The notes beneath the pieces are model-generated. The model ran no database searches. It had not been told where the DNA came from and worked only from the letters and a program-made list of their open reading frames with translations. This document shows, piece by piece, positions 12,318 to 54,438 of a stretch of DNA of 64,000 nucleotides; position 1 is the first letter of the stretch; each line of letters begins with the position of its first letter. Made by a program: the position numbers and the translations under genes. The DNA lies in the NCBI RefSeq assembly GCF_019649055.1, contig NW_026570260.1, forward strand, positions 930,001 through 994,000. The letters run 5' to 3'. This DNA is from Paramacrobiotus metropolitanus. Taxonomy: Eukaryota > Tardigrada > Eutardigrada > Parachela > Macrobiotidae.

Positions 12318-15300
12318 TCACAGCGCCTCATGTTCGTCAAAATATTCAACCTGCCCTTTGCCCATTACCGCCGCCCGCTCGTCATGAAGGTCAAAATTTC
12401 CTAAAAAACAGACCTTTCACAGGCATAGGCGGATGCGTACTGGAAACACAATAGTTTGAACGTGAGAAAATATTCCTTAATCAATCAGCTAAATTAGCTT
12501 ACCTTCTTCGTCCGTCAACCAGAACGTTTCCATTTCTTCCTCATTCGTAATTGAAATAGGACTGACCGGTGATGGCACGAATAAGAAATGCCGGTAAGCA
12601 TCTAATAACGATTTCGTACTGGCCGCAACATGGATTTGCAATTCTAAAAAATATTGGTAAGTAATAAAATCAGGGACAAAGCAAAATGTAAGTCCGGCGT
12701 CGGATGCCGGAGGTGAAAATAAATACAACAGCGATACTTACTTCTCTAGTCTACCAATCTACTAAGAAACTCGACTACGGATGTCTTAAACTTACAGTAC
12801 TGGCTTTAATACTTTATTTATGTGTTATTATTCATTCAAGCTTTAATAATTACAGAAATGTTAAAAATAATATATATATAATAATAATTTAATTCAATCC
12901 ACTGACGATCACAAGTCTGCAGAAGCCTCTTGGCAATGATCAGGGTCAATCCGCAAATTCCAAATCTTGGAGCGGCCAAATTCAAGGTAGCCATTACCAC
13001 CGGACCTATATAATCAACGACTGTAATGTAGTCATACATGCTTCATAACCTTATCAATTTGGCTTCCATCAGAAACACACGGAAATTTGTATAAAAACTT
13101 ATCAAGAAAAAAAAACAAAAATTAACCAAAAATGCAAGATTGAGAACTCATATTAAAGACTTCTGCAATTTTGCTGACCCGATGTGAGCGCAATTCGAAG
13201 TTTGGCCTGCTCGTTTGGCCGATGCGGCACGATAAACCGGCGTATTTCTACCATGCTGAATAGCGCTAATCGGGCTAGTTCGCGTGCACCCTGCTTGGCA
13301 GACTCTCCAAATATCCCCGCTGTGACCTTCATGGCAAACAAAATTTAATATCAATAAGTTAAAAGTTTTTTCGGAGAAAATGTAGTATTGTCGATTTAAG
13401 CGTAGTATCATGTCTTTGTTTTCCAATAATTTTATAGTGAACCTATAATGCATGATTGTGGCAGCTTTTTGGGTAACTAGGCCATCTATTGTGTAAAACA
13501 AGTGAAAACGGTGAAGACAATTCAGCGCAAATCTGTGAAAGCGCTAATTACGGCTGGCAGTCATTGTACTCGAATATTGCACGTATCAACGTACCAATAC
13601 GGTTTCCCCATTGTGCTCCACCTTAAAGCAGTCGAAACCGGCAATAAGGCTGTCCAACATTCCGTAGAAATGGTCAAGAAGCTTCGTAATCTGTGCCGGC
13701 TGGCTTTCTACGCAAATAGTCTCGAAACCCATTAAGTCCGCGAGAAAGAGTGTAGCGTTGCGATGTATTGTCGGTTGGACGCGCTTGTTCAGCATTACTC
13801 GTTCCGCGACAGCACTAAAAAGACGTAACGTTATTCAACGTATTGCATGCCGGGCCGCTGGCTTAACACATTTTCCCAGAAACTGCAAAACCCTGCTATG
13901 GGGTGCGCTTTCGGTCGTAGGTGTGATACTGAATACATAGTATCCTTACCGAGGAAATACTTTCATAAAAGCTTCATCGCTCCTGATTTTTTGCTCCAGC
14001 AGCTCGTTGTCTTTCTCTTCCACGGCTGCTTGCAGTAAGTAACCAGACTCCTCCATCTGCTGCATAAACACATCCATAATGTTCGTCTGATCGCCCATAT
14101 TCCTGTTGCGGAAAACAATCATTACAGCTGGCTGAATTAAGCAACAAACGATAGCTGATGCCTGGAAAAATCGTTCACTGTATAATGTATTACTTTTTTT
14201 ATAATTAAGTTGCACAAAACACATGTATGTTTACATTGCTTTGCCAATGTTGCGAACCGCTGTTTTGATTTTCTCGAACGATGGTCGTTCAGCGATATTC
14301 TCCGACCAACATTTCGTGCATAACTCTATCATTCCTGGCGGCACATCCTGATCCGGGATTTTTGGTCTAAAGGGCACTCCGCTCAATGACATGCCCTTCC
14401 GCACTTCGTCAACTATTTCTGAAAATCGTTGAAAAAATCACAACAATTACCAGCAACTGCCACTGCGATGGCGGATGTGTTATGAATTTTTCGAAATCTT
14501 CAAACTCAGGGCAATAACAGCAAAAGTGGCATACACTACTTCCGCTACGTGAAGGTAACGGACCAAGCGCACGAACTACAACAAGGCTTAGACACTCATC
14601 GACTAACAGTGCGCTTCTTATTGGGACCGACGGAAGTGAGGTGTCGCCCAGAACAGTTTTGCCGGCAACAAACGGACAATACTCGTCCTACCATTAGGCG
14701 TCATGTTGAACATTGCGTACGGCTTAGAGCGCATTATGATTTCTTGCAGTATAATGCCGAAGCTGTAGACATCGCCTTCCTTCGTACAGCTGAAGTTCAG
14801 TGCTCCACTGGCGTCCGCTCGCAGCTTTTCAGGGCACGTCCACAACAGTGTCGCGGAAAATTCCGGGTCGCGTTTGGCCATCCAAAATTCAGACACTGTT
14901 GGAGTGAAAATGCTGGCTAAGCCGTAATCCGTAATTTTCAACACGAACCGGCTATCGATGAAACATGTTGACGATTTGAAGCGGGTATGCGCACCAATCG
15001 GTGAGGTGTGCAAATAAGCCATCCCTGAAAAAATACCTTTCGATTTTGCGGCTTCGATGCATTGGTTGTCGCAAATGCGATGTTGCTCGGACTCTCGGAA
15101 ATTATAGAACGAAAAAATAAGATTTCACCATTAACGATGTCCCGAATCCAGGATATTCGAATTGTCCAGTCCAGTTTTGTACCGCCATCGCCCTCGAACA
15201 TCAACTAAAACAAATAGCCACATTGAAAATCGTTGCGACCAAACTTCTATACGAAATGAGAACCGTACTCAGTTGTTTCTAGCTTTTGAACGAGAAATTG

Positions 15301-18300
15301 AAACTGGCGTCAGACAGTAGAGACCAACATGAATAGCACGTACATCAAGCGGTCCTTTGCCGCACATCTCGTACAAAATGCAGATATTATCGTCTTCTAC
15401 GCAGCCACCCAAGAAACGGGCAACGTTGTCATGATGTGTTTTGCGCACGACCCGCACTTCCAGAATAACCTGTCGACTGACCACCACGCGCTTGCGGCTG
15501 GTCCAGCGCAGGACGACCGGCATTTTGTTCCATGTGCCAAAATGGTCGCTCATGGCCGTGAATCGTTTGCGCATGGATGCCGTCAGAGCCATCGACTGTC
15601 CCATGGAGCCTTTGCAGGATGCGCCCATGGAGAAGCCCTGCATGGAGTGCCCATCTGTACAAGCAATCACCATCTGTTCCCATACCACAATGTCTCCTCA
15701 ACGAGCGCAATAGGACCGAATGCGTAATGTTCCTCAAAATTGGCGGTGAAATTCGAATAAAGTTTGAGTTTTTCTATTGAACAGTTATTATCAGTTGTTG
15801 TTTTTCTTCGATTACCGTCGTGTTCTTCCGATATGTGACTGACAGCATCATTCTTGCGTGTGCGATGGAATTTCAGATGCCGCAACGGCACGATCCATTC
15901 GTGATCGGATTTCGCTTGTTTGCGGGCCAAACGAATGAGATGTATGGCCAGAACCGAAAAGCCCAGTACTACCGGAATTACCACTCCCAGAGCCACTTCC
16001 AGTGTGGGAAATGGAGCTGTAGATCAGTCAACGACCAATCAGTATCCAAAAAACATACCCACATTCGATCGGGTGAAAGTGTTTTTAAAACAAAATCTGT
16101 ATTACTTGCACAAATTTCCGCTTTGCCGTCGTACCCGCACGTCGGGATATTTAGCGGTGGGGTTTTTGAACCGCCTGGCCACGGTATGGGCTCCATCAAT
16201 GGAAGGTAGGTGCGGTTCACTGGATCGAATTCGGCAACACACTACAACCAAGATTGTCATGGTACGTAGCAATTAATCGGTTGTGGAAGATGGGATCTAA
16301 ACTTTAAAAGTGCAAAATGTGGAAAGCATGATGAGCTATCGCTTCAAAAGTGACAAGTGTAGAAAAATGGTCTATACTTGGTAAGAATCGTTAACCATCG
16401 CATAAAGATCAAACTGGACGATTCGATCCCCGGCGTCATCGAAGCTGAGATTCCCACTAGCTCCTAGAAACAGGAATCAACATTAGTGCAACTGCATAAT
16501 TTTTTGTGGCTACTGCAAAATACGGCTAAATGTGAGACTGGGCCTCTTAAGTGCATAGACGTAGCTAATCGTCACCTCGAACGGTCGCGTTGGTCATAGA
16601 CTCAACCAAGCCATTGCAGAAATCGATTCCCACTTTAAGAACGGTGCCGTTGGGATAGCCGACCGGATTTGAATTTGTGTGCATACATGAGAGAACTTTT
16701 CCAGTGCCGTTGGCTGACTCCACAAGGGCTTTAGCAAAAATCATGATCGCGTCGTAGAAAGTGGCCACGAAGAAATTCATGGAGAACGTTCCATCGTACT
16801 TGACACGAGACACGTTAGCGGCTCGTTTAGCCAGATCCAAATACATCTCATTATTTTCAAAGGGTGCCATTGAGATTACAAACAGGGACGTGAACGCTAC
16901 TTTGGCAATTGCATCGTCGCTGTCATCTGTTACGGATCGTCACATCAACTATTATCACCATATTTTGTAATACAAATACCGAGAAATTTTCGTCGAAAAG
17001 TTGTTAACTCTGATCCAACTGTACCATTTTGCCAGACTGGTTTAGCCACATTGATGAATGTATCGCGCAGTGGATCAACAACCAGATAAAGATATTCCGC
17101 ATTTGTTAGATTGCTTTTCTGAGCGATAATCATGGTGTGGCGAACGTAAGTCGGGGACAGTAGAAGGGCGATAACTGCAAGGAAAAACTCAAAAACTGTC
17201 TTGTGGACCATAATGCGCAATACCGCCATAATGCGCTTACTACGTGACGTCAGACTGGCACGATTCAGGCAGTCCAGAACGATAGCGGCGTTGCGGTCGT
17301 TGTTGTTTGGTGTGTCGGGATACAAATCGCAAGCGATCTCCGTGATCTTTCCACCAGGTATGCCATCTCGATGTGGAGGAATGAATCCACGTACATCACC
17401 ACCCGCCACATTCAAGCGCAGAGCTAACATAAAAAGGCACATGACCCTTGGCTCACAGGTAAAAATGTGCAAAACAGGCACGTATTACTGTAGTGGCTCG
17501 CACATCTTGAACCACAGAGTTGGTGTACGGGAAAAACGTGCATCCAGTGTACACACTCTAACAGGGCCAAACGCACGATTCGCAGTTGGTGTGCATTGAT
17601 AAATTTCTGATGTTTCACAACATCTGGTCTGGAGAACCTTCTTGAATTTTAAAAAAATTAGAGCTCTAACAATTAATAACTATGTTTATGCTCAAAAGCA
17701 GCCATTAACTTAAGTCTTTGCCGTCAGCTCGAATTCTAGCGCTGATTTGTTGTGGTTTTTGGGGTGCTCCTGCAGTGTGAGGGGTACGTTCAGCGTCCAC
17801 ATGCTGCAGCTACAGAACAATTCGAGCTCTCAAATACAGATCTTTTCTTTCTAAGGTGAATTACAATTTTAATGAAAATGCTTAATTAATTGGACAGATT
17901 CAGAAGGAGTGTTCATGTTGAAGTCAAAATCAAGCATCATTTCGCCGCCGTGCATTTTGCCCGGTTAGAGTGTGTATATTGGATGCACTTTTTTCCCGTA
18001 CACGAACTCTGTGGTTCAAGATGTGCGAGCCACTACAGTAACAGTAAGCAGCAGCATAATCTTATATTTCCGTGACATGCCTGAGTTGACTCTTGCCACT
18101 CAACTGTCGAAGTGCGTTTGCGCTGTAGGATCGCTGGTGTTATACAAACCGGCAATGGATGTCCAGTTGTACGCTGCTGCCATGCCCTGGGTCAAGATAT
18201 GCCTGCAACAATGTAACATTCTCCTCTTTTTGCTTAATGTTGTTGCCCGTTTGCTCCTTATAAACAACATGTTTACAAAATTTTCATACAGTATCTTTGC

Positions 18301-19032
18301 ACAATGCTGCAAAGCACCAGCACCAGCGTATTTGTTTCTTTCTTCGCTGGATATGCTGTACTTTTCGGTTTAAGGCATTATCGAGTAGCCCCTGGACACT
18401 TACCACATGCTGTAAACATTGTAGCCGGTTCTCACAGTGAAATTTCGGTCCTGTGTGCTGTAAACCGACTCCGCCCTGCCTGTCATGAGAACCGACATAA
18501 TTTTCTGCGTCGCCATTGTCACCGATTGATAGTCGGACGCACATCCAGGCCCCAGCAGCATCTGCCCCACTACGTTATTTTGGGGATCGTAGTACCAATA
18601 CTGGGGATCCGGACCGTCTTGCACGAGTATTGGATTATTATTCAGCATTACATCAACAGCCTGAGCCACCGAGTACCACGTGGCCACCGAGTCACAGTGA
18701 TTGGCGTAAAGGCGATACCACGGTGTCAGAATTAAGCTGTAAGCGGCGGCCACGTCACTGATGGCCACATCGATGGCCGGAGCAATATTTCGAAAGTCAC
18801 TCAACTGGGTAGAATTTCCCAACAAAATAACTCCAAAGTCATAAGGAGCGCTCAAGTCAAGTTTGGGTCTATTGAGAACACACCAGGCAGGCGTAAAGGT
18901 CGAACAAAGCACAAAGCATACGTGGAAATATTTAATTTGTGCCGCAATAAGTCGAACAAGCCGAACTACTCTAACCGAAAGAGCCGTCATGCGGTGGTGC
19001 CATGCTGAGATTTCAATCATGTGGCGTCGCAT
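12318..19032 (-). CDS. Receptor guanylyl cyclase-like protein with degenerate cyclase domain
   Basis: Running right to left: ATG at 19032-19030 and a hydrophobic leader; an ANF-receptor ligand-binding domain over exons at about 18400-19032 (with LGPGCASDY), 18090-18202 (AYNWTSIAGLY), 16945-17430 and 16565-16870; a membrane helix with ARKQAK...EW (15870-15996); a kinase-homology domain (15600-14240; DYGLASI, WTCPEKLR, CWSENIAERPSF); a helical linker (about 13980-14090); and a cyclase domain (about 13850-12490). The last exon is 12318-12400, joined in phase after METFWLTDEE. In other animals such receptors make cGMP on ligand binding. Here the first metal aspartate (ADLMGF) and the guanine-binding Glu (KVE) are kept, but GDAY reads GET, RYC reads RFG and the VN of GDTVN reads LI. 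The protein may therefore signal without making cGMP. Some exon borders in the ligand domain are not resolved. Confidence 0.75.
17479..18045. repeat. Inverted duplication, about 85-bp arms, in receptor-cyclase gene
   Basis: The segment at about 17479-17565 is the reverse complement of about 17950-18043, with a few mismatches; both contain CTGTGGTTCAAGATGTGCGA in one orientation. The 390-base spacer (17566-17949) has no recognisable gene. Both arms fall in the non-coding part between ligand-domain exons of the minus-strand gene, so a transcript of that gene could fold here. Confidence 0.65.
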
Positions 19033-19093
19033 TGCTTTCGTTCCTTTAGGGATACTAAACTACTTGCTCGTATCACTGAGTCGTATGACGTAA

Positions 19094-28573: not shown

Positions 28574-31500
28574 TTACACGAACCACCCCGGCACGTCTCC
28601 ATTCTGCTGGTTAATAATACGCAGTTTCTTGATCAGCGGCTGAAAGAACTCCACCAACGGTGCGGCACTCATACGCCGTGACCCCGTAATCTTCTCCAGA
28701 GCGAACTGCCATGGTTTCGAAGAGCCCATAGACAGCATGTCGCTGCATCATGAGCAGCTGAGATATTCAGTTTTCAGTGAGCAAATATGAGAAATAATTA
28801 CCTGAATAGTTTGCCGGCATCTCTGGATTTGTTGATGTCACACTGGTACAAAGGACCGGTATGACCGGCTGCATGGCACAATGCTTTGTGGAACTGGAAT
28901 TGTAGAATGTAACTGATGAAATACCTGCAATCGCACACCATAACAATAAAACATATCTATCAACTGGCGTATTAGGCTGTGGGGCACATCAGACTCTGCT
29001 GTTACCTCATATATTCCGTATCGGATGCGATGTGATATTTTGCACCTGCGTCAAAGTCCCATTCGCTGCGGGGAACTGGGGAACCAGACCTTGATACTTG
29101 TAACTACATTGTTAGCAGTAAAGAAAGCATGTAAAAATCTGGAGAGTTCGACGGCAAGCTGAATTGTTTGCTCATACATATAGTTCCACCATCCGGCATT
29201 GAGCTGGTCGAAAGAAATCCGCCCGGCAAAAATGTCGTACCGGTAACTGTCCATCACGTAGGCAAACGGCAGGAAGACGATCTTATCCAGCGCCGTGGCA
29301 AACATGTAATTTAGGTCGCTTTCTGTAACACAGCGTACTGTTGTAGTCGAGCGGGTTTGCAAAAGCGGACGTTCGCGAAAGTTACCATCATCTTCCACGT
29401 TGTTTTTCAAAAGTCCAAGCCAGGCCAAATGCTTCGGAGTTTTTACGCTTAATGCTAGCGTGTCACCTACTGTATTAGCCCCAAATAATTCAGGGAAATG
29501 TTTTGCTCTTACGTTTTTTAACGATCGTTTACCGGCCTCATGGAAGCCTCGGTTGGCTCCGTCGCGATAGAACGACAGCTGATCGGCATACTGGAAAACA
29601 AGTACTGTAATGACACAGGTTTAAGGAACGTAGGGGAGGCGTGGTCAGCGCACCCGGACCGTCGGTCTCTTTGATCTTGAAAGGGGCCGACGTCTCGTGT
29701 GCGCTGCCCGGCCCCTGGAGCGTTCCTTAAACCTGTGTCATTACAGTATTGCCTGTTTTGGTAGTGTAATTTTGGATTAGCTTAATTTGCATCGCAATAA
29801 TTACCTGCAAATCGTACTGGATATGCCCCATCTCGCTGCAGAAAATAAAAACACTAGGCCACCCAAATTTAGACGAATGAAGATGTTGTATGTACTGGTG
29901 TATAGTAACGAGATCCTCCATGGTCACTTTGGTGCACATTTTAATCCTGTAAAAAAGCAAAAACTCTCTAGCCATTTTATTATCACTTTGATTTCTATTA
30001 TCGGTACCGAACATCGTTATCCTCTTTGAGATCCCACGCCGACGCATGGCAGACGACCTTTCGCCCGTCTTTGGGCTCTTCAAACATAGAGTACTTCCAA
30101 AATGTGTCCGGCATGGGAATCAACCCGAGATCTTTCTGGAACTCCTCGGAGAGCTCGAACATGCGGCGGATGGTGTAGTTCTGTAGGAGCATTTCTTCTG
30201 TCACATCCAGCAGCGGCTTGGAAGGATACAGCTGTGCAAAAGGCAAGACGGATAACCAGTCCTGTGAGAACATCTCCCCTGACAATGTAATCACAATTAA
30301 TATTCCAGTCCCAAGTACGCCGTGGTCGAAGGAAACGATTATATGGAATGAAATCTTTCATTTTTAACCGCTATTTTAGTGTGACCCCCTAGCTCACAGT
30401 CAAGTGACCTTTTCCGTATGATAGGTTACTCGAGTTCCGCCTTCAACAAAGCTGGGCGATCTGATTGAACGAAATTCTATTAATTAATTATATCGAATAA
30501 ATCGGTGTACCGGCTAGATGGGCCGGAATGGGTCCGTGCGGGTGAATATTCTGATCTGGAAACCGTCTCCTTAATACACCCCGTACATACGCGTGTACTT
30601 CCTCGTATAACGGCCGTATCGTATGCCACATGCTATCCAAGTCTTTGAGGAAAGTACTGTCGTTGTAGCCCATGGATTCTCGGGCGTACTCGGATCGCCA
30701 CATCTGTCCAGCGTCTCTGTAGCCTGCATGACGACAATAACTATGCACGCCACGTTACCAAAACGTGCAAACTCCGACTTGTGAGGGGAACAACGAGTAT
30801 TTAATCAGTCATAAACGAAGTAATGCCAGTTTCAGCTGGCCTAGACAGTCTGCTTTCTGGTACTGAGTTGAATCTCCACTTGTGCAGCAGTTAGCCACCC
30901 CAGAATTTACATTTGTATCAACGAAACAATCGGCCCCGTAAGGTTTATATCAAACCTGTCATTTTTGCAGCTTTATTCTTGAGTTCCACATAGCGGGTGA
31001 AATTGGCGCGGATAGCACGACCACTAACATCGCGCCACTTTGTCCACACGTATTTGCGCTTATCGAGATCCCACGAGTGTCGTAGATAATCCACAAGACC
31101 TGCAACAAGACGATAATGGCAAGGTAGCCACATTTTGCGAACCCAAGAATCACCGACTTGGCTCTACATTCAGTCGCATTGCTTGCGGGCACTCATCCCG
31201 CGGCAGCAGCGCGATCTCCTCCAGGTCCCCATTGGGGTTAAAGCAAATCCACGTCGTGGAATACACCGATTGCATATGGTTAATCAGCAGATGCAGTTCA
31301 TCCAGTTCGGACGACGGCAGCGCCGCATCACCCAGCAGACTCAAGCGCCGCTGAATTCCCTTGGCTTCTTCGTCGGTGCTGGAATTGAGGCGGAATTGGG
31401 AGACTGCGGCGCTGACAATATGCGCGAATTTTGCGCCATCTTGAGACGAACGGATCTGTAGTAATGAAATGTATGCTGAAAACAGTAAAATGAGAATGTG

Positions 31501-45180: not shown

Positions 45181-48100
45181 ATGGTGGAAGGCAAGAAGCA
45201 CCACCATCACGGCGTAGCGCACCGACCCCATGATGCCGCCACCTCCGACGACCCGGACCCGGTCAAACAGCGCCAGCGCCACTACTCGATGAAAGTGGTG
45301 ACGCATGTCGGATCCAAGGAGCACATCGAGTGGGGCTGGTCGGCGTACGAACAACGGCGGCGGCGCAGCCATCTCTTCCGTCTGTGGGACGGGTTCATCG
45401 CTGGTCTCGCTATCTTGCAGTTTACTTTAATCAGCACACAGGCTACCTTTGCGCCTTTCATGGACTCCCTGCTAGCCATAACGTACGTGCTGGATGTATG
45501 TAATGTCATCGATATCTGTGTCAGTGTGGTTAAGCGCTACAAGATGGACCAGCGGAACGTGGAACTGCGAAAGGGCAACTCCAAACTGGACGCCTATCTA
45601 TGGTCGTGGTTCATGGTGGATCTGCTGAGTGTGGCGCCCTTGGAGGCACTGTCTATCACTGTGTCCGAGCAGATGAAGATGCCGTTTCTAGCCTTCCTGC
45701 GGTGCAATCGCCTGCTGTGTGGATACAAGACATTTCGGGTGAGTCTAGAAACACCTGCATTTTTTAATTTGAACGGATAGTAGTCAGCAGACATTGAATG
45801 CCAACAAGCAAGCGCGGGCACAAAATCCTCTATTGATAGCTTTGCTAAAAGTGCTTAAGAGTGAGCGCCCTACTGTAGTAACAGGAATCCTTCAATTTTC
45901 CGCCTCGAGATTAAAAGGAAATAAAACATCAAGCATGGTCGACCAACTATGCCGTGTTATTGTGACGCGTTATCTTGTTGGTATAGTTTCTTAATGCGCT
46001 GGAGGCCGAAGTGGGCGCCTCATTCGTAACGATCCGCGCCGCCTATTACACCATTCTCTCGTGGTTGATGCTGCACATCACGGCCTGTATCTGGTTCCTG
46101 ATCCCCTGCCACGACTGGAGCGAAGTTCAAGACGGGATGCCCCTGTGCACGGCGCCATCATGGGTGTTCAGCGGCGCTGATCCGCTCAACGGAACCTCTT
46201 TGTACGGTCCGGAGAGCGCCCCCTCGCCCAATAAAAACATATACGCTGGCTGCTTCGATCACGGCCTTGGAGGACCGGAATCAGGATACGTGCGGCTGAA
46301 CGCCACGGTTGGGGAGAAATACTACTACTCCATCTATTGGGCGGTCATGACCACCACCAGCGTCGGGTATGCGGTACGTTGACCTTTTTCCGTAGCTAAT
46401 TTACAGTACTGTATATGCCGTACTCTTTGAAGTTTATCAGCAATGAGGTGTAATTGTTGCCATACAGGTTAGGTGAAGTGCACGCCATAACCTTTCCGGA
46501 AATGGTCTTCTCTGTTGTCGCTCAGTTGGCAGGGATGATTGTCTTATTTGGGATCATTCAGGGCGGGATTACGTCTATGTTGACCAACTTCGACACCATT
46601 CAGTTTCGCTATAAGCACCGGGTGGCGGCCATCACGCAGTACCTGCGCGATCAGAATCAGTCCACGGAGTTGGTACGGAATGTGACGGATTTTTACGATT
46701 ATCTGTGGAAGCGGAGTAAAGGCATGAGCAGTTCGGGCCTGTTTGATCAACTGCCGTTTGCACTGCGATCAGAAATTGCTATGGAATTAAGCGGGCGTAT
46801 CATTGATAAGTCACCTTTATTTCAGGTATTTACTGTTATTCCGCTACGGTTTATTTGTGCATATGTGCAGTGGCTGCGATATCGAGCACTCCGTAACAAG
46901 GAAAATCTATTTTTTGTTATGGGAAAGTGTTCTGTTACCTTGTTTTTCAACCTCTTAGAAGTTCTATTATCGTTTAGTTTTGTCACAGAGCAAGTTTTGC
47001 TATAGGAATTTCCTCTTCTCGTTTAACATATCCACGTTGCTCTACAGGATATCAGCGCGAGTTTTCTCCGAATGCTCAGCCTGAAGTTTCGCCCGATGTT
47101 GGCGCTACCCAAGGAGACAATCATGAAGAAAGGTGATTTAAGCGACCTAATGGTGTACATCCAGAATGGTGAACTGGAAGTGTTAAGCGATGACGAAACC
47201 GAAGTGCCGGTGATACTGTTCAAACCAGGCAAACTATTCGGCGAAATCAACCTGATCACCCGAATGCCCAGAAAATTCACCGTACGCGCTATTGCCCACT
47301 GCGACCTCGTAGTACTGCGAACGGAAGATCTAATGGACTGTTTACAATCATATCCTGATATTGCCGATGAATTGCGGGTGAGAATGATCTGAGCTATTCG
47401 GATTACTCATTACTGCACGTATTGTATACTTCGAAGTATCCTTGTTGTGGTGTTCGTTAACATTTTTCTTCAGCTGCTTTGACTGAATGATATAAAGTGT
47501 CAACTTTCAACAGCAAAGAGCGGAAGAGCGAACAGGCGTCGCGCAGCAGAAAGTGGAAGAAGGCTTACTGGCTCACACGGACAATCATGAAGCCGTCAAG
47601 CGCAAGAAACAGCAGAAAGAACTCGCCGCCAAGATGGAAGAACTGAAAGCCGAGATGGGCATCAATCTCCGGCCGTTGATGACGGCCCTTAACATCGACC
47701 GCCCCCAGGAAACGCTGAAGGTGTCCAACTCCATGGAGCTCTTCAAGATTCGCGACCCCATGGACGAGATGGTGGAGTACAATATGGGCTCATTCAGTCG
47801 GCGGCTAATCTCCCGTTATCACCGACTCAAAATTGCATTCTTCGAGCTGAGCATCGATCCCGATGGGCTGTTCTATTATTTTTGGCAGCGCATGATGCTG
47901 TTCCTGGTGCTGGTGACGTTTTTTCTCTATACGTACGTCGGGTTCTTCCAGAGCTACAATCAGCTGGTAACGACACCGGTCGGAATGGTGATTCTTGCCA
48001 TGAGCTACATCGTGGACATTGTGTTTATGGTGGATTATGGGTTCAAGTTTGTCACACAGATCGTGACAGCCAATGGAAAGATCACCGAGCATAAGGCCAT

Positions 48101-51100
48101 GGCGCGCGCTTATATGAATACCTGGGGTATGTACCAAAACGATGTTTACAGTGTTTTTGACGTCACGCTATGCCGTACAAGTCACTGGTCGGTATTCGGT
48201 AGGGTGCTACACGGACTTTCTGGCTGTTCTGCCGCTGGACGTTTTCGCCCCTATCGGCATCGCCAGCAACACCCAGTGGTCCTTGCTCAGTTATCTGAAA
48301 CTGAACCGCATCCTGCGTGTTCTGACCCTGCCGCGCTTCTTCGACCAGATGACAGCCAACCTCGACACTTCCACTGCCTCCGTCCGCATCGTAAAGTTCA
48401 TGCTGTATATCGCGCTGGCCACGCAGATCTGCACGGTGCTTCTTTTCCTCAGCGCTTGCTCACCGGAACGTTGCGCCGATGACCCCAAGTACAGTTGGCC
48501 GCCGGCCGTCCCGCCCAATATCAGCAACACTGACTCACCGGCGGATTACCGCTACACCTCCGCATTATACTTTGCCGTCACTATGATGACCACCATTGGG
48601 TACGGTGATCTGTATCCGCATTCGCTCATTGAACAGCTGGTGTGCAATGTCGTCATGATCGCCGGGGTGCTGATGTACGGTTACTGCCTGGCGGTGCTGA
48701 CGGCAACGATAGCCAACATGGATGCACCGCGGGTGGAATTTCAAGATCGCCTGTTCGCCATGATGAAATTCATGGAGTACAACAAACTGGCGCGTATTGT
48801 CCAGGATCGAGCCATTGATTCTGTGGCGCTGCTGTGGACCATGAGCAAAGGTGAAGAAATCCCGGGAGTGAAAAACATGTGTGAGGATATGCCGGAGCAC
48901 CTAACCGAAGAGATTCAGGTAAGCCATCCATAAGCTTAATTGGGTAAGATTGGGTTTGCTAACAGAAGTCACGATGCGTAGGTTGACGATCTTATCCATT
49001 TGGTGGCCGGTGTACCTATCTTCAAAAATATCGAAGAGCGGATTCTGAAGAACTTTGCGCCCGCGGTGCGCCGGTACCTCTTCCCGCCAGGTGAATACAT
49101 AATCCAAGCGGGTGACCTCATCGATGAGCTATTCGTCATCCGGCGGGGATTCTGCAGCATGTTCCACCCGGAGCAGCAAGGTGTGTGCATCGGCATCCTG
49201 CATCCGCGGATGTACTTTGGAGAGATTGGTTTCATCTTCAATCGCAATGAAATTATCAGCGTCAAGACAATCACGCACTGCGAAGTTCTGGCTATACCGC
49301 GACCGGCGTTTGACTACGTGGCGACCAGTGTGGAGTGGCTGCAGCATCAGATGAATCGCATTTCAGAGGTTGGTTTCAGACTTTAACGAGTGCCTCCTGG
49401 GTTTGATCACAAAAACACCATGGATATTTCGTATTACGTATTATTGCCGTTTATTTTTAGAAATCTCCATGAATTTTAGCATTTACAATTATCAAACCCT
49501 GCAGAAACAAAACTGTTTATTCCCAGGATGGCGATTATTATGAAAACCTCGTGGAAGCAGCCAAGCAAGCCAAACCCTACGCCAAGAAGCGAAAACAGCA
49601 GTCCCCGACCCGCCTGACCGACAGCGAGAAACGCAAACTGCATTTTCGCGAGGACCTTAACGCAGTACACGTGTCGCGATGGGCGGCGTATCTGACGCGA
49701 CTGCTGATGTCGTACACCGTGCCTATGGATGGGACTTTCCTCTTGGTGTGGGAGCGCATTCGGCTGGCCGAATGCCTTTTGCTCTTTGTCCTGTCCATGG
49801 TACAGACCGCATTCCAAATTGATGATTGGTAAATGCCAGCGTGACTACTTTGCGAGTACGTTACCAAAGATCACCCTTGTAGGTTCTATTTCGGCGTGCT
49901 GTACGCGCTGGATCTCTACGCGATCACTGATTTGTATTTGAAATTCCACATCCAGTACGCCAATGGTTAGTCGGTTGTGCCAGGCTATTACCGAAAGAAG
50001 TTGAATAAACAAAGATCGCCATATTTATTTAGATATGAACATTGTGGTGACGCATCCACTGATGACCGCGAAGCGTTACCTGAGTTCCACTTTTTTTATG
50101 GATTTCATAGCGTTATTTCCTTTTGAATTCTTCATGCTCCTGGTGCCGGATGGACTAAGTCGTGCGGAGATCCTGCACTGGGTTATGTACTGCCGATTAA
50201 ATCGCTGTCTGCAGATTTACCGCATCCCTCTGGCCTTCTCCTTCATGGAAGCCGACATAAAGGTGGACACGTCATCGTTACTCCTGAAGAAATACTGCAT
50301 TTATTTCATTGTTTTTATTACCTTCATCACTTGCATTCCGGTCACGCTGGAGTGTCTGCCCAATAAATGTGCAATAACGTCCGCGGGATGCTGTAAGTGT
50401 GAGAACAGCAATAGTAGCAATTGCTCGGTATCTACATAATCGACCGGAGCGTAGCGAAGGTCCTCTTAATTCAGCACCAATGCAAAAATATATCTGTGTC
50501 CGTTACGAAAGGTTGTTACGAAAGGTCATTACGAAAATGTTGCTGGCTGGAAGTGGAAATTATTGATTATGTTAATTGTAAGTTACAATTGATTATCATT
50601 TGCACAAGCGAAAAGCTGCATTCTGCGCTCCGGTCTGCCAATGCACGCCAACGTGCATTTTCCTAGTTTTATGATAATTCTGTTAATCCAGTCAACCGTG
50701 AAAATCAACCCTTAGAGTAGAACTGACTCACTCACTTAACTGAGTTTCAAATAGGAGTATAAACAAGACTTAGTATTCTGGATAACTCCCCTCCCGTGCT
50801 AATATAATATGTAGGATAAACGAATGAACATGTGTAGAAATACTCTGTACCTCCTACGAGTGAATACATAACCATGTTAAATGGAACTTTAATGAGATGA
50901 GCGGTCGCTGATGGTCGTCGCAGTTGATGGTCTGGTCGCTACAGTCGATGATCTGAACTGATTCCGACTAGTTACGGCTAAATCCTTATTGCCGGCTGCA
51001 CCAGCCGTTGCCGGAGCATGCACAGATTGACATACATTGTACAATACAGATCTAGATGTACGAGTACAACGCATGCAGTGACAATGAATGTACAATGCAT

Positions 51101-54100
51101 GATAATGCATGCTAAAAGTATGCTGATGTAAGGCTTGGTAGGTTTTACCAAGGTGTGCCAGAAATATCACCAACATTCAGGTTCACAGTATATTTTTATG
51201 AACCAACTGGCGTGTGCTTTAAGTGACTGGCATGGATGTTAAGAAATGGGACAAAAATTTAATACGTGTGCGAACACATTTCACTGCTTCTTACGAATAA
51301 TATTAATTTTCTGTTTGATGTCAACATGTTTTGCATTGTTTTACTCGAATGTTGACAGATTTCAAAATTCAGAACAAGACCCAGTCCGACCTGAACATTC
51401 AGCTGGACATCGATTTCCCCGACTACATCGACGATATTAGCACTGTAGGGCTCACACGCCGTCCTTGGACATCGCACTTTACCCGGCACAGCGACTTGTC
51501 ACGGGTCAAACGCCAAGCGGTCACGAGCCCGGCCCCAGACGCTGACGGTTACATTAACCTGGACACTTCACTCGTGTGCCTTGGCCAGTGTTTCTTGCAC
51601 AATGGCGGCATCGACGAGACTACCGACAACTGGACACGTTTTGTCGCTAGTTTTTACTGGGCGGTGACGACCACGACGAGCACCGGCTATGGTGACCTTT
51701 ACGCTACTAATCAATTGGAGCAGGTGGTGTTCCTTTTCTCCATGATTTCCGGGAATATATTTTACGGGTACATTGTGGCTAGCATTGCGGCGGCGCAGGC
51801 CAATAGTGATGCGCAACGTTCACGGTTTTTTGAGAGATTGGTGGCGGTCAAGCAGTATATGCTGCATGAACGGCTGGGAAAAAACCTACGAAAAAGAGTG
51901 GTCAAGTAAGATGAAAGACTGAGAAGATAGTGGGACTAATTAATTAAAAAATAGTTGAACAACAGCATGATTAACAATAGCAATAATGTATTGCAAGGTT
52001 GATAATAATAGCACTAACTGAAGTTTGTTTTTAATAAACTGATTCTTCCTGAACGGTTATTTCTGCGTTGTAGGTATTATGAATATTTGTGGATGAGGAC
52101 ACACGGCGTTGATCCGCAGACTCTGATCGTCGGCCTTCCGCCGTCCCTCACCGGGGAACTGGCACTGCAGCTGTACAAAAAGGTCATCGAGCAGATTCAG
52201 ATCTTTAAGAACACTCCCGCTGGGTTCAAAAAGATGTTGGCGGCCATAATCCGTCCGCTGTATATTATTGAAGGCGAGTATGTAATCCGCTGCGGCGACA
52301 TCGGTGCTGATCTGTTCTTCCTGTACCGCGGCACCATGGACCTCATTTATACCAACGGCGAGGTCTCCCCTGCCATTGTCCGCTCTGGCCGTATCCTGGG
52401 TGAGGTGGCCTTTCTTACCAATCAAAAAGCAAATACCAGCTACCGAGCACGTGAGAACAGCGACCTATACTTCATCACCAAGAACGACTTCGACATCGTC
52501 CTGGAGCACTTCCCAGAAGTCCGAGAACGCCTGATGGATGAGGCTAAGGAGAGCATGGAACGGGAAACAGAAAACCAGCTACTATTTGAAAAGCGGCCGC
52601 ATAAGAAGACCCTGCAGAATTCCCTGATCTACCGCCCACCCGAGACGGTACCACTCCGAGACCGCCTGGATAAGGCCGTCCGCCATATTTTCCGCCCAGA
52701 CGACAAATTTATTCGCTACTTTAGCAAATTCAGTATGATGGGGCTACGGACGGTTTCGGTGATGCTGATCTTATTCCAGCCGTCCTTTAACAGCTACGGC
52801 ATGGAGTTATACGCAGCCAACTACATTCTCGAAGTGGTATTCCTCTTCAACATCATTCTGACTCTAAAAACCGGGTTTCTGGATGAATTCGGCAACGAGG
52901 TGATGATCCCGGTGTCCATTCGGCAGCGATACTTGCGCAGCCGCAATGGCCTTCTCCTGGACTGTTTCGCCTGTTGTCCTTATGAAATCTTCGCGTTGAC
53001 GGCGCCCGGGGAGATCCAGCCTCAAATCTGGGGCTATCTACGGTTATTACGCATACCGGCGCGATTGTTGCGCATTCAAGAGTTCTTTAAGAACTGGTTG
53101 AGCGAACTGGACATTAACATGCTAACGGTGCGGTTAACGTTTTCCTTTACGCAATTGGCGCTGTGGTTGCACTTTTTTACGGGAGTCGCGTATTATATCG
53201 CTTGCCCGCACGGATACTGTAATCCGCAATCGTGGATTAAGAATACGCTGCTGGTGTATAACCATACGGCAGAACAAGCGTATGTGACGTCATTTTATTG
53301 GGTGGCCAACACAGCGACTAGTACCGGGTACGGCGACATCATTCCGCCCACTAATTTATCCAGGATTTTTTCCTGCATCGTCCAGGTGATTTTCGGCAAC
53401 AATATTTTCCCTAATTTCATTAACATTTTCCTATAAAGTTTTGCAGTCAGTTTGGCGATCTTTCCTATAATTTTATCGTTTTCGGTGTACTGTTGTAGAT
53501 TGTAGGAAAATGCCTGTTTGGTTTCATTATCGGCGATATTGCCTCGGCGCTAGCCAATGCTGAAATCAGTCGGCAGAACTTTGAGAGCCAGTTTCAAGCG
53601 ATAAAAACATATCTTCTGGATCAGCATGCCAGTAAACCCATCATCGATCGCGTACAGAACTACTTTAACTATCTATGGATAATCAGTCGTGGCATCAATG
53701 ACATTGCCTCTGTTCTCAGTGACGCTCCCTTCTGCCTGCGAACGGAAATTGGTTTCGCTGTACACAACCGCGACTTGCGACAAGTAGGTCTCATATCTAA
53801 GCAAAAGGCCTATAAAAGCAGTTGTACTCTAGCATCATAATTCGCTGTAGTGGATGCCTACGAACAGAAACATATTGCAGTTCATGCGCATATTCGGTTA
53901 GAGTTTGTTAAACTCCAGTGTGCTGACTAAATCGGGGTATGCTGGGGCTGATTTTTTTAAGCAACACCTTTGCAGTTGCCGCTGTTTCGTGATGCGTCGG
54001 ACGCCTTCATCCGTATGGTTAGCGCCCACCTACACCAAGTGCAGTTCGTCCCGGGAGATTTCATTATTCAACAGGGCGATCTGGTGCAGGAGATCTACTT

Positions 54101-54438
54101 CCTGCATCGCGGCGAGGCCGTCGAGGTGGAGACGGGAGTAGAGATTGGGGTCATCCGGCACGGCAGCCACATTAACTGGCAGGCGGTCCTGATCGACTGG
54201 CCGGCATCGCGAACGGTGCGTGCCACCGACAACTGTGAGGTTTACGTTCTGTCCCGTGCCGATCTGGAGAAGGTGCATTTATCGATAAGTCGGTTACTAT
54301 ATCATACAGAAATGTTTACCTTTAGTTGTACGTTGATAGGTGGTTCAGAAGTTCCAGATGGAAATGGCAAATGTCTGCACCACAACGAGGACACGATTAA
54401 GAGATTTGCTGGAGGAAGAGCATGCCGAGCTGGACTAA
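45181..54438 (+). CDS. Four-repeat cyclic-nucleotide-gated channel (CNGK / tetraKCNG type), 2202 residues
   Basis: Fifteen exons join in phase with no stop: 45181-45738, 45987-46366, 46468-46825, 47048-47377, 47514-48126, 48203-48918, 48982-49368, 49527-49828, 49883-49965, 50033-50392, 51359-51905, 52074-53385, 53499-53783, 53976-54272 and 54358-54438 (6609 bases). Four units each have six membrane segments, a pore, a C-linker and a cyclic-nucleotide-binding domain. Pores: repeat I TTTSVGLGEVHA, II MMTTIGYGDLYP, III TTTTSTGYGDLYA, IV TATSTGYGDIIP. Binding domains lie at about 47070-47370, 48990-49360, 52150-52520 and 53980-54270. Sea-urchin and fish sperm CNGK have this layout and are K+-selective, cGMP-gated channels acting as a pseudotetramer in the plasma membrane. 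Only repeat I keeps the FGE...R phosphate cassette intact. The start ATG precedes a His-rich, charged N-terminus. Confidence 0.9.
50436..50675 (+). mobile_element. Dispersed element, copy A, in intron 10 of the channel gene
   Basis: The block begins CGACCGGAGCGTAGCGAAGG and ends with CTCCGGTCTGCCAATGCACG...TTTTCCTAG, with short inverted ends. It matches 21430-21745 on the opposite strand along its length, including TTACGAAAGG(T)CGTTACGAAA-type core sequence. It lies in the 966-base intron 50393-51358, by far the longest in the gene. No coding capacity is seen. Confidence 0.65.

Follow-up and report, generated by a model that had tools for sequence, protein, structure and literature searches.

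A probable CNGK-type four-repeat channel, present in two copies, in the tardigrade Paramacrobiotus metropolitanus

Architecture of the window gene

The window analysed here is a stretch of 64,000 nucleotides from the tardigrade Paramacrobiotus metropolitanus (RefSeq assembly GCF_019649055.1, contig NW_026570260.1, positions 930,001 to 994,000 of the forward strand). From the ATG at 45181 to the end of the stop codon at 54438 its + strand carries a gene of 15 exons, named copy A here, whose predicted product is laid out as four repeats (R1–R4), each with six transmembrane segments (6TM, S1–S6) and a pore, followed by its own cyclic-nucleotide-binding domain (CNBD). By its sequence the channel is of the CNGK kind, with two departures, a GLGE filter in R1 and a broken nucleotide site in CNBD3, that are common to copy A and a paralog, copy B.

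The exons, re-derived from the sequence, join into a coding sequence of 6627 nt (2208 aa) with zero internal stops or frameshifts, and the 14 introns (54–966 bp) are all bounded by GT-AG and consistent in phase. An earlier sequence-only reading of the window had proposed fifteen exons in one frame with four S1–S6/pore/CNBD units, agreeing splice phases and a length divisible by three; all of this holds, apart from its length of 2202 residues. Its “compact invertebrate genome” is that of an invertebrate, but at 170 Mb is compact only moderately. The gene-specific parts (19 and 18 bases) of two primers published for a TPS-TPP gene of Paramacrobiotus sp. TYO (PMC8277472) match the assembly once each, in convergent orientation and 3.7 kb apart on contig C84; reversed-pattern controls gave zero matches, and roughly 0.001 and 0.005 would be expected by chance. 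The TYO strain is named P. metropolitanus in PMC11191345, and we take the genome to be that of this strain or a very close one. A lipocalin search for a tardigrade marker gave three matches and was uninformative, the best open reading frame (L009) resembling by eye a fatty-acid-binding protein. Both Ion_trans and cNMP_binding (Pfam) scored above cut-off in each of the four repeats, and structure matches of the two repeats searched, R1 and R3, were SthK, CNG, KCNH, plant K+ and HCN channels. The exons are as follows, with the support for each given last.

Exon 1, 45181..45738, + strand: N-terminus and R1 S1–S4; aligned to copy B, intron shared
Exon 2, 45987..46366, + strand: R1 S5, turret and pore helix; same phase-2 intron in copy B
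Exon 3, 46468..46825, + strand: R1 filter GLGE, S6 and C-linker; alternative splice sites tried give stops
Exon 4, 47048..47377, + strand: CNBD1; frame and Pfam
Exon 5, 47514..48126, + strand: R1–R2 linker, R2 S1–S2 and beginning of S3; frame
Exon 6, 48203..48918, + strand: R2 S3–S6, C-linker, filter GYGD; frame
Exon 7, 48982..49368, + strand: CNBD2; frame and Pfam
Exon 8, 49527..49828, + strand: R2–R3 linker and R3 S1; frame
Exon 9, 49883..49965, + strand: R3 S2; frame
Exon 10, 50033..50392, + strand: R3 S3–S5; frame
Exon 11, 51359..51905, + strand: R3 turret (start least certain; 55 aa more than copy B), filter GYGD and S6; frame and copy B
Exon 12, 52074..53385, + strand: end of R3 C-linker, CNBD3, linker, R4 S1 to pore and beginning of S6; uninterrupted
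Exon 13, 53499..53783, + strand: R4 S6 and C-linker; frame
Exon 14, 53976..54272, + strand: CNBD4; frame and Pfam
Exon 15, 54340..54438, + strand: C-terminus and stop; start backed by VVSKY.. of copy B

Exon 12 (52074-53385) carries CNBD3 and R4 from S1 to the pore without an intron, so at least R3 and R4 belong to one chain. The R1–R2 and R2–R3 junctions rest on predicted splicing; the intron at the former (after residue 542) is common to copy B and that at the latter (after residue 1114) is not. The R3 turret is the least certain part of the model, with an outsized intron of 966 bp and 55 residues not found in copy B. An alternative exon 2 donor at 46373, by which the R1 filter would read GYA, reaches a stop with either acceptor (46468 or 46473), and copy B independently reads GLGE; the exon 3 acceptor at 46473 was ruled out because it runs into a stop. 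The extended R3 turret of copy A, which is extracellular, contains at window 51499-51522 an RVKR sequence, a furin-like motif; it is not in copy B, and the exon start is uncertain there.

A second copy and the duplication

When the assembly to which the window belongs (169.8 Mb, 533 contigs) was searched with the cNMP_binding profile, 39 matches resulted, four of them in copy A and four in a row on contig C39. The latter belong to copy B (locus L001, C39:384.5-394.4 kb, minus strand), a complete four-repeat gene of 11 exons and 2150 aa with 57.8% identity to copy A over 2137 aligned residues. Five of the 14 introns of copy A coincide in exact position and phase with one of the 10 in copy B. 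For a sixth pair, phase 1 in both copies, the preceding residue is the same aligned Cys; the start of an alignment gap at this point kept the script from counting it. In both copies an intron of the same phase interrupts the first Gly codon of the R1 filter, the exon 2 donor cutting it as GG/G in copy A and GG/T in copy B.

Differences between the copies are structured by codon position (0.35/0.23/0.61), and the two have diverged under coding constraint. These values are given in place of dN/dS since dS was saturated (−1) for the whole gene, R1, R3 and R4; it was 2.5 for R2, and dN ranged from 0.31 to 0.43. In a tree of pore-to-CNBD segments the repeats of the same number pair at 100/100, meaning that the whole gene was duplicated, and this occurred in the lineage of P. 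metropolitanus.

Selectivity filters

The four filters of copy A are located as follows.

46350..46477, + strand: R1 filter TTTSVGLGE, split by the intron 46367-46467
48586..48609, + strand: R2 filter MTTIGYGD
51673..51696, + strand: R3 filter TTSTGYGD
53314..53337, + strand: R4 filter ATSTGYGD

Both copies read GYGD in R2–R4 and GLGE in R1, a GYG-type filter in three of the four repeats, and the pattern G(Y/L)G(D/E) is present in 8/8 CNGK repeats as against 0/6 of the tardigrade's own CNG pores compared. In R1–R4 the residue ahead of GYG or GLG is V, I, T and T for copy A, and T, A, V and A for copy B. The Na+ block of sea-urchin CNGK arises from a Thr found in three of its four repeats, a residue that freshwater CNGKs are said to lack (PMC4749565). 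If the Thr/Val site of that work is taken as the position just before GYG, Thr occupies it in 2/4 repeats of copy A and 1/4 of copy B, compared with 3/4 in sea urchin.

Phosphate-binding cassettes of the CNBDs

The cassettes of the four CNBDs differ in the retention of their FGE motif and of an Arg, which we take to be the residue contacting the nucleotide phosphate.

47231..47290, + strand: CNBD1 phosphate-binding cassette, FGE and Arg retained, next two residues K and F rather than T and A
49213..49269, + strand: CNBD2 cassette, FGE retained, Glu in place of Arg
52393..52449, + strand: CNBD3 cassette, GE retained, Ala in place of Arg (Ser in copy B)
54168..54224, + strand: CNBD4 cassette, INWQ with no GE, Ala in place of Arg (NWQ and Ala also in copy B)

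All 9/9 reference CNBDs (seven own CNG-like loci, the own HCN and SthK) carry the Arg, compared with 2/8 CNGK repeats, namely R1 of each copy; among the four repeats, CNBD1 alone combines FGE with the Arg. The sequence-only reading had spoken of peculiarities of its own in this channel, and these can now be named as the GLGE of R1 and the loss of Arg in R2–R4, both common to the paralog.

A conserved CNBD Arg has been called crucial for binding, and the CNBD of repeat 3 is the single functional cGMP site of sea-urchin CNGK (PMC4749565); we take that Arg to occupy the same column as the cassette Arg here, which that text does not spell out. CNBD3 has Ala (copy A) or Ser (copy B) in this column, and we therefore do not place the channel in the sea-urchin subtype of cGMP-gated CNGKs, for which a CNBD3 with the phosphate-binding Arg is characteristic. 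An AlphaFold2 model of CNBD3, from a run on the four copy A CNBD exons, had a mean pLDDT of 58, too low for use.

Phylogenetic placement

The tree comprised 16 rows of pore-to-CNBD segments: the eight CNGK repeats, six own CNG rows, SthK and HCN. The own CNG loci (eight CNG-like genes in seven loci) were named by eye from open reading frames. Left out were gene B of L002 (breaks in the CNBD frame), L008 (pore not joined), which entered only the cassette comparison, and the KCNH-like L019 (CNBD not in hand); the L003 row was shortened, and the HCN row, which was joined roughly, has a long branch. A branch supported at 100/98 divides the eight CNGK repeats from the six own CNG rows. Deep branches are weak (bootstrap 56–78), so the repeat phylogeny that the sequence-only reading had called for sets the repeats apart from the tardigrade's own CNG channels and places them only weakly, within these 16 rows, relative to SthK and HCN.

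Candidate partner genes in the same genome

In sea-urchin sperm, cGMP opens CNGK via the third CNBD; sNHE responds to the resulting hyperpolarisation, and CatSper opens upon alkalisation and the depolarisation that follows (PMC4749565). Genes resembling both partners are found in P. metropolitanus. L014 (C39:254.5-264.4 kb) has, in order and on one strand, NHE exons, an S4-bearing Ion_trans exon (30.7 bits) and a CNBD trace (20.1 bits, below the cut-off of 27.5), and the best eight of its 12 structure matches are to sperm NHE, in two stretches each and at 4e-47, followed by NHE7 at 2e-13. By sequence L014 is an sNHE (SLC9C)-type gene combining NHE, voltage sensor and CNBD, with its status as one gene given by order and match only. 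L018 is a second sNHE-like voltage-sensor–linker segment, the best eight of 49 matches being sperm NHE at 4e-23, with the following family at 1e-8.

A CatSper beta gene was recognised by CATSPERB_C (108.6 bits) and by both of its two PDB matches (CatSper beta, 1.3e-16). Among three 6TM genes with no further Ion_trans match listed nearby, L028, L026 and L029, the best CatSper matches are CatSper1, CatSper2 and CatSper3, respectively, within the best 60 of 148, 121 and 154 structure matches. For L028, CatSper1 scores 145.8 bits in a single stretch, whereas Cav3.1, top by summed score and the only Cav covered by this single-domain comparison, reaches 62 bits with its best domain; the summed Cav and Nav scores exceed that of CatSper1 because several domains add up. 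The corresponding scores for L026 (CatSper2, 143.4 bits) and L029 (CatSper3, 103.7 bits) are best CatSper matches taken without the single-domain control. L028 is thus well supported by sequence as CatSper1-like, and L026 and L029 are weaker candidates for CatSper-alpha genes. CatSper4 was not found in a search that was not exhaustive. Of 22 Ion_trans loci (L017-L038), inspected by eye, these three carry a T-x-D-x-W pore, one is the second sNHE-like locus, and the other 18 resemble Kv, polycystin, RyR, IP3R, Slo, KCNH or NALCN. An HCN N-terminal exon (HCN N-domain) lies on contig C24.

One 1.19-Mb contig, C39, holds the sNHE-like gene, the CatSper1-like gene, copy B and the CatSper2-like gene, a grouping that may correspond to one of the regions reported as male-biased in PMC11191345. 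The two CatSper-like genes are located as follows.

C39:290.6-291.9 kb: L028, CatSper1-like
C39:901.9-903.2 kb: L026, CatSper2-like

Genome-wide, 849 candidates for the adenylyl/guanylyl cyclase family (150 scored) gave 212 matches, which are exon pieces in which adenylyl and guanylyl types are undistinguished; they suggest a very large cyclase family in P. metropolitanus. A receptor-guanylyl-cyclase-like gene lies in the window itself at 12489-19059 on the minus strand, ~26 kb from copy A, with a kinase-homology exon (14621-15124, 47 bits) and a cyclase exon (13586-13834, 32 bits); five other open reading frames of this locus, including those at the expected receptor-domain positions, had no Pfam match. 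The second metal-site region of this cyclase reads GETV by eye, which may mean that the enzyme is altered.

Comparison with known channels

Compared by published description, sea-urchin CNGK/Sp-tetraKCNG (Arbacia, Strongylocentrotus) is likewise built as one chain with four 6TM-pore-CNBD repeats and mostly GYGD filters, and the genome here has genes resembling its sNHE and CatSper partners. It differs from the tardigrade channel in the GLGE of the tardigrade R1, in the missing Arg of the tardigrade CNBD3, and in the two paralogs and ecdysozoan host of the latter. Zebrafish DrCNGK, which is pH-gated, shares the four repeats and the loss of the conserved Arg in repeat 2 (Ala in zebrafish, Glu in the tardigrade); as in DrCNGK, cGMP probably exerts no control at repeat 3 of the tardigrade channel. 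The tardigrade Arg is also lost in R3 and R4, whereas the R1 and R4 CNBDs of zebrafish are described as free of obvious abnormality; the 42-residue C-linker insert of DrCNGK has no tardigrade counterpart (R3 aligns to SthK from pore to CNBD, 256 residues each); and the tardigrade has CatSper-like genes, unlike teleosts according to PMC4749565. The tardigrade's own single-repeat CNGA/CNGB channels share the 6TM, C-linker and CNBD order, but have one repeat, a GYG filter in 0/6 pores, the Arg in 7/7 CNBDs and a separate clade. SthK, a bacterial cyclic-nucleotide-gated K+ channel, is the best solved-structure match of R1 and R3 and shares a K+ filter and CNBD; it is a tetramer of separate chains with the cassette Arg intact.

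Proposed function and alternative explanations

We consider it probable that the window gene encodes a divergent CNGK (tetraKCNG): one gene, since duplicated, for a pseudotetramer with a K+ pore that hyperpolarises sperm and whose cGMP gate at CNBD3 is most likely gone. The four repeats of the chain would fold round a single K+ pore, for which the three GYGD filters and one GLGE filter suggest K+ selectivity by family. By analogy with sea urchin, opening would hyperpolarise the sperm and activate voltage-gated sNHE and then CatSper, and we propose the sperm role because sNHE- and CatSper-resembling genes share the genome. Male-biased genes of P. metropolitanus are enriched, at the level of gene sets, for cyclic-nucleotide biosynthesis and monatomic ion transport (PMC11191345), and the sex-separated RNA-seq published there makes the sperm hypothesis directly testable.

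The sea-urchin gate, one cGMP on CNBD3, being by its sequence most likely gone, the cGMP gate may have moved to repeat 1 or been lost. CNBD1 alone has FGE and Arg and is yet altered beside them, so both gating through repeat 1 and nucleotide-independent gating (e.g. by pH) are possible. Control by cyclic nucleotide via CNBD1 only appears quite possible, if short of probable, from the cassettes; gating by pH or another ligand is a more tentative proposal, modelled on zebrafish CNGK, whose gating is by pH rather than by cyclic nucleotides (PMC4749565) and which shows that a CNGK can lack cGMP control; a CNBD3 that still binds cGMP seems unlikely. Tentatively, the whole sperm cascade of sea-urchin type (cyclase, CNGK, sNHE, CatSper), which is not known from fly or worm, may have been kept and its first switch rewired, with two paralogs, a lost CNBD3 site, and the repeat-1 cassette and GLGE.

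Several observations weigh against parts of this interpretation. The Arg of R1 is retained, yet both neighbouring residues are changed (K, then F in copy A or Y in copy B, against T and A in SthK), and the loss of Arg elsewhere lowers nucleotide binding but need not abolish it. R1 lacks the GYG or GFG filter described for the CNGK family (PMC4749565). CNGKs are reported to pair R1 with R3 and R2 with R4 (PMC7576140), a pairing not recovered in our tree, where R2 groups weakly with R3 (70/85) and R1 falls, also weakly, on the side of SthK and CNG (56/71). Orthology to CNGK would draw on architecture and literature, known CNGKs having been compared by published description. Both copies are known from genomic sequence alone, CNGK is unnamed in the available text of PMC11191345, and in a survey of animals the numbers of CNGA and CNGB genes were highest in tardigrades (PMC9803222), which makes a somatic role possible.

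Such a role, in which the channel would serve sensory neurons or osmotic or desiccation responses rather than sperm, could draw on that expansion of CNG genes (PMC9803222) and on the one CNG gene up-regulated on desiccation in Hypsibius (PMC5531438). We regard it as improbable: the CNGKs studied in sea urchin and zebrafish (PMC4749565) and in Ciona (PMC8835908) are sperm or testis channels, and the presence of sNHE- and CatSper-resembling genes argues against a role in soma only. Persistence of sea-urchin-like gating, with cGMP from a receptor guanylyl cyclase opening the channel via CNBD3 despite the lost Arg, is similarly unlikely. The receptor-cyclase-like gene in the window, with its kinase-homology and cyclase exons, the 212 cyclase-domain matches of either type and the GE kept in CNBD3 are in its favour; they are set against Ala or Ser at a position where 9/9 reference CNBDs carry Arg, a residue crucial for binding if the column is the same (PMC4749565).

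For the pore, GLGE in both paralogs where CNGKs are described with GYG or GFG (PMC4749565), together with the varied residues before GYG, might indicate a weakly selective or non-conducting channel whose protein acts otherwise. Three of four filters are nevertheless GYGD, and this explanation is quite improbable. GLG filters also occur in some two-pore K+ channels. It is more improbable still, to a degree that leaves little room for it, that the single gene is a misreading of neighbouring genes, at least two in number, or of one in partial decay. Two junctions are predicted splices, that of R2–R3 without a shared intron, and one intron is outsized; R3 and R4, however, meet in one exon, copy B is colinear, with four matching repeats and five introns in common, 6627 nt run without stop or frameshift, and the divergence of the copies is codon-structured.

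Distribution and significance

The sequence-only reading of a CNGK-type pseudotetrameric channel outside the deuterostomes is borne out by a tardigrade host, four repeats and a complete paralog. The Figure 1 legend of PMC4749565 lists CNGK from fishes, sea urchin, acorn worm, amphioxus, tunicate, sea anemone, sponge and choanoflagellate, with no protostome among them; PMC7576140 places CNGK in metazoans and choanoflagellates, its main text mentioning neither tardigrades nor Ecdysozoa; and most of the chemotactic groups named in PMC6660944 (tunicates, echinoderms, molluscs, cnidarians) keep CNGK, tardigrades going unmentioned in the main text. Among the matches listed in a search of open-licence literature, with database annotations outside its scope, there was no report of an ecdysozoan CNGK or a tardigrade CatSper, and the one listed paper in which “CatSper” and “tardigrad” both occur deals, by its entry, with TRP channels; we claim no priority.

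If the assignment is true, a tardigrade CNGK alongside sNHE- and CatSper-like genes would mean that the pathway occurs in Ecdysozoa and that it was lost later in other lineages. CNGK is not known from fly or worm. The two copies would also offer a natural experiment on gating, with the same architecture, the third-repeat Arg replaced in both (Ala, Ser) and the first-repeat Arg kept.

Other features

Three further observations were made in passing. L032 (C30:1259800-1262300) has two near-identical exons, NALCN-like by eye, ~1 kb apart, which may reflect a recent tandem duplication or an assembly artefact. The first gene of L002 (C26:188500-196000, minus strand) is CNG-like with its CNBD split between two frames, through assembly error or decay. 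In the window, an exon of an angiotensin-converting enzyme (Peptidase_M2, 97.6 bits) lies at 29054-29620 on the minus strand.

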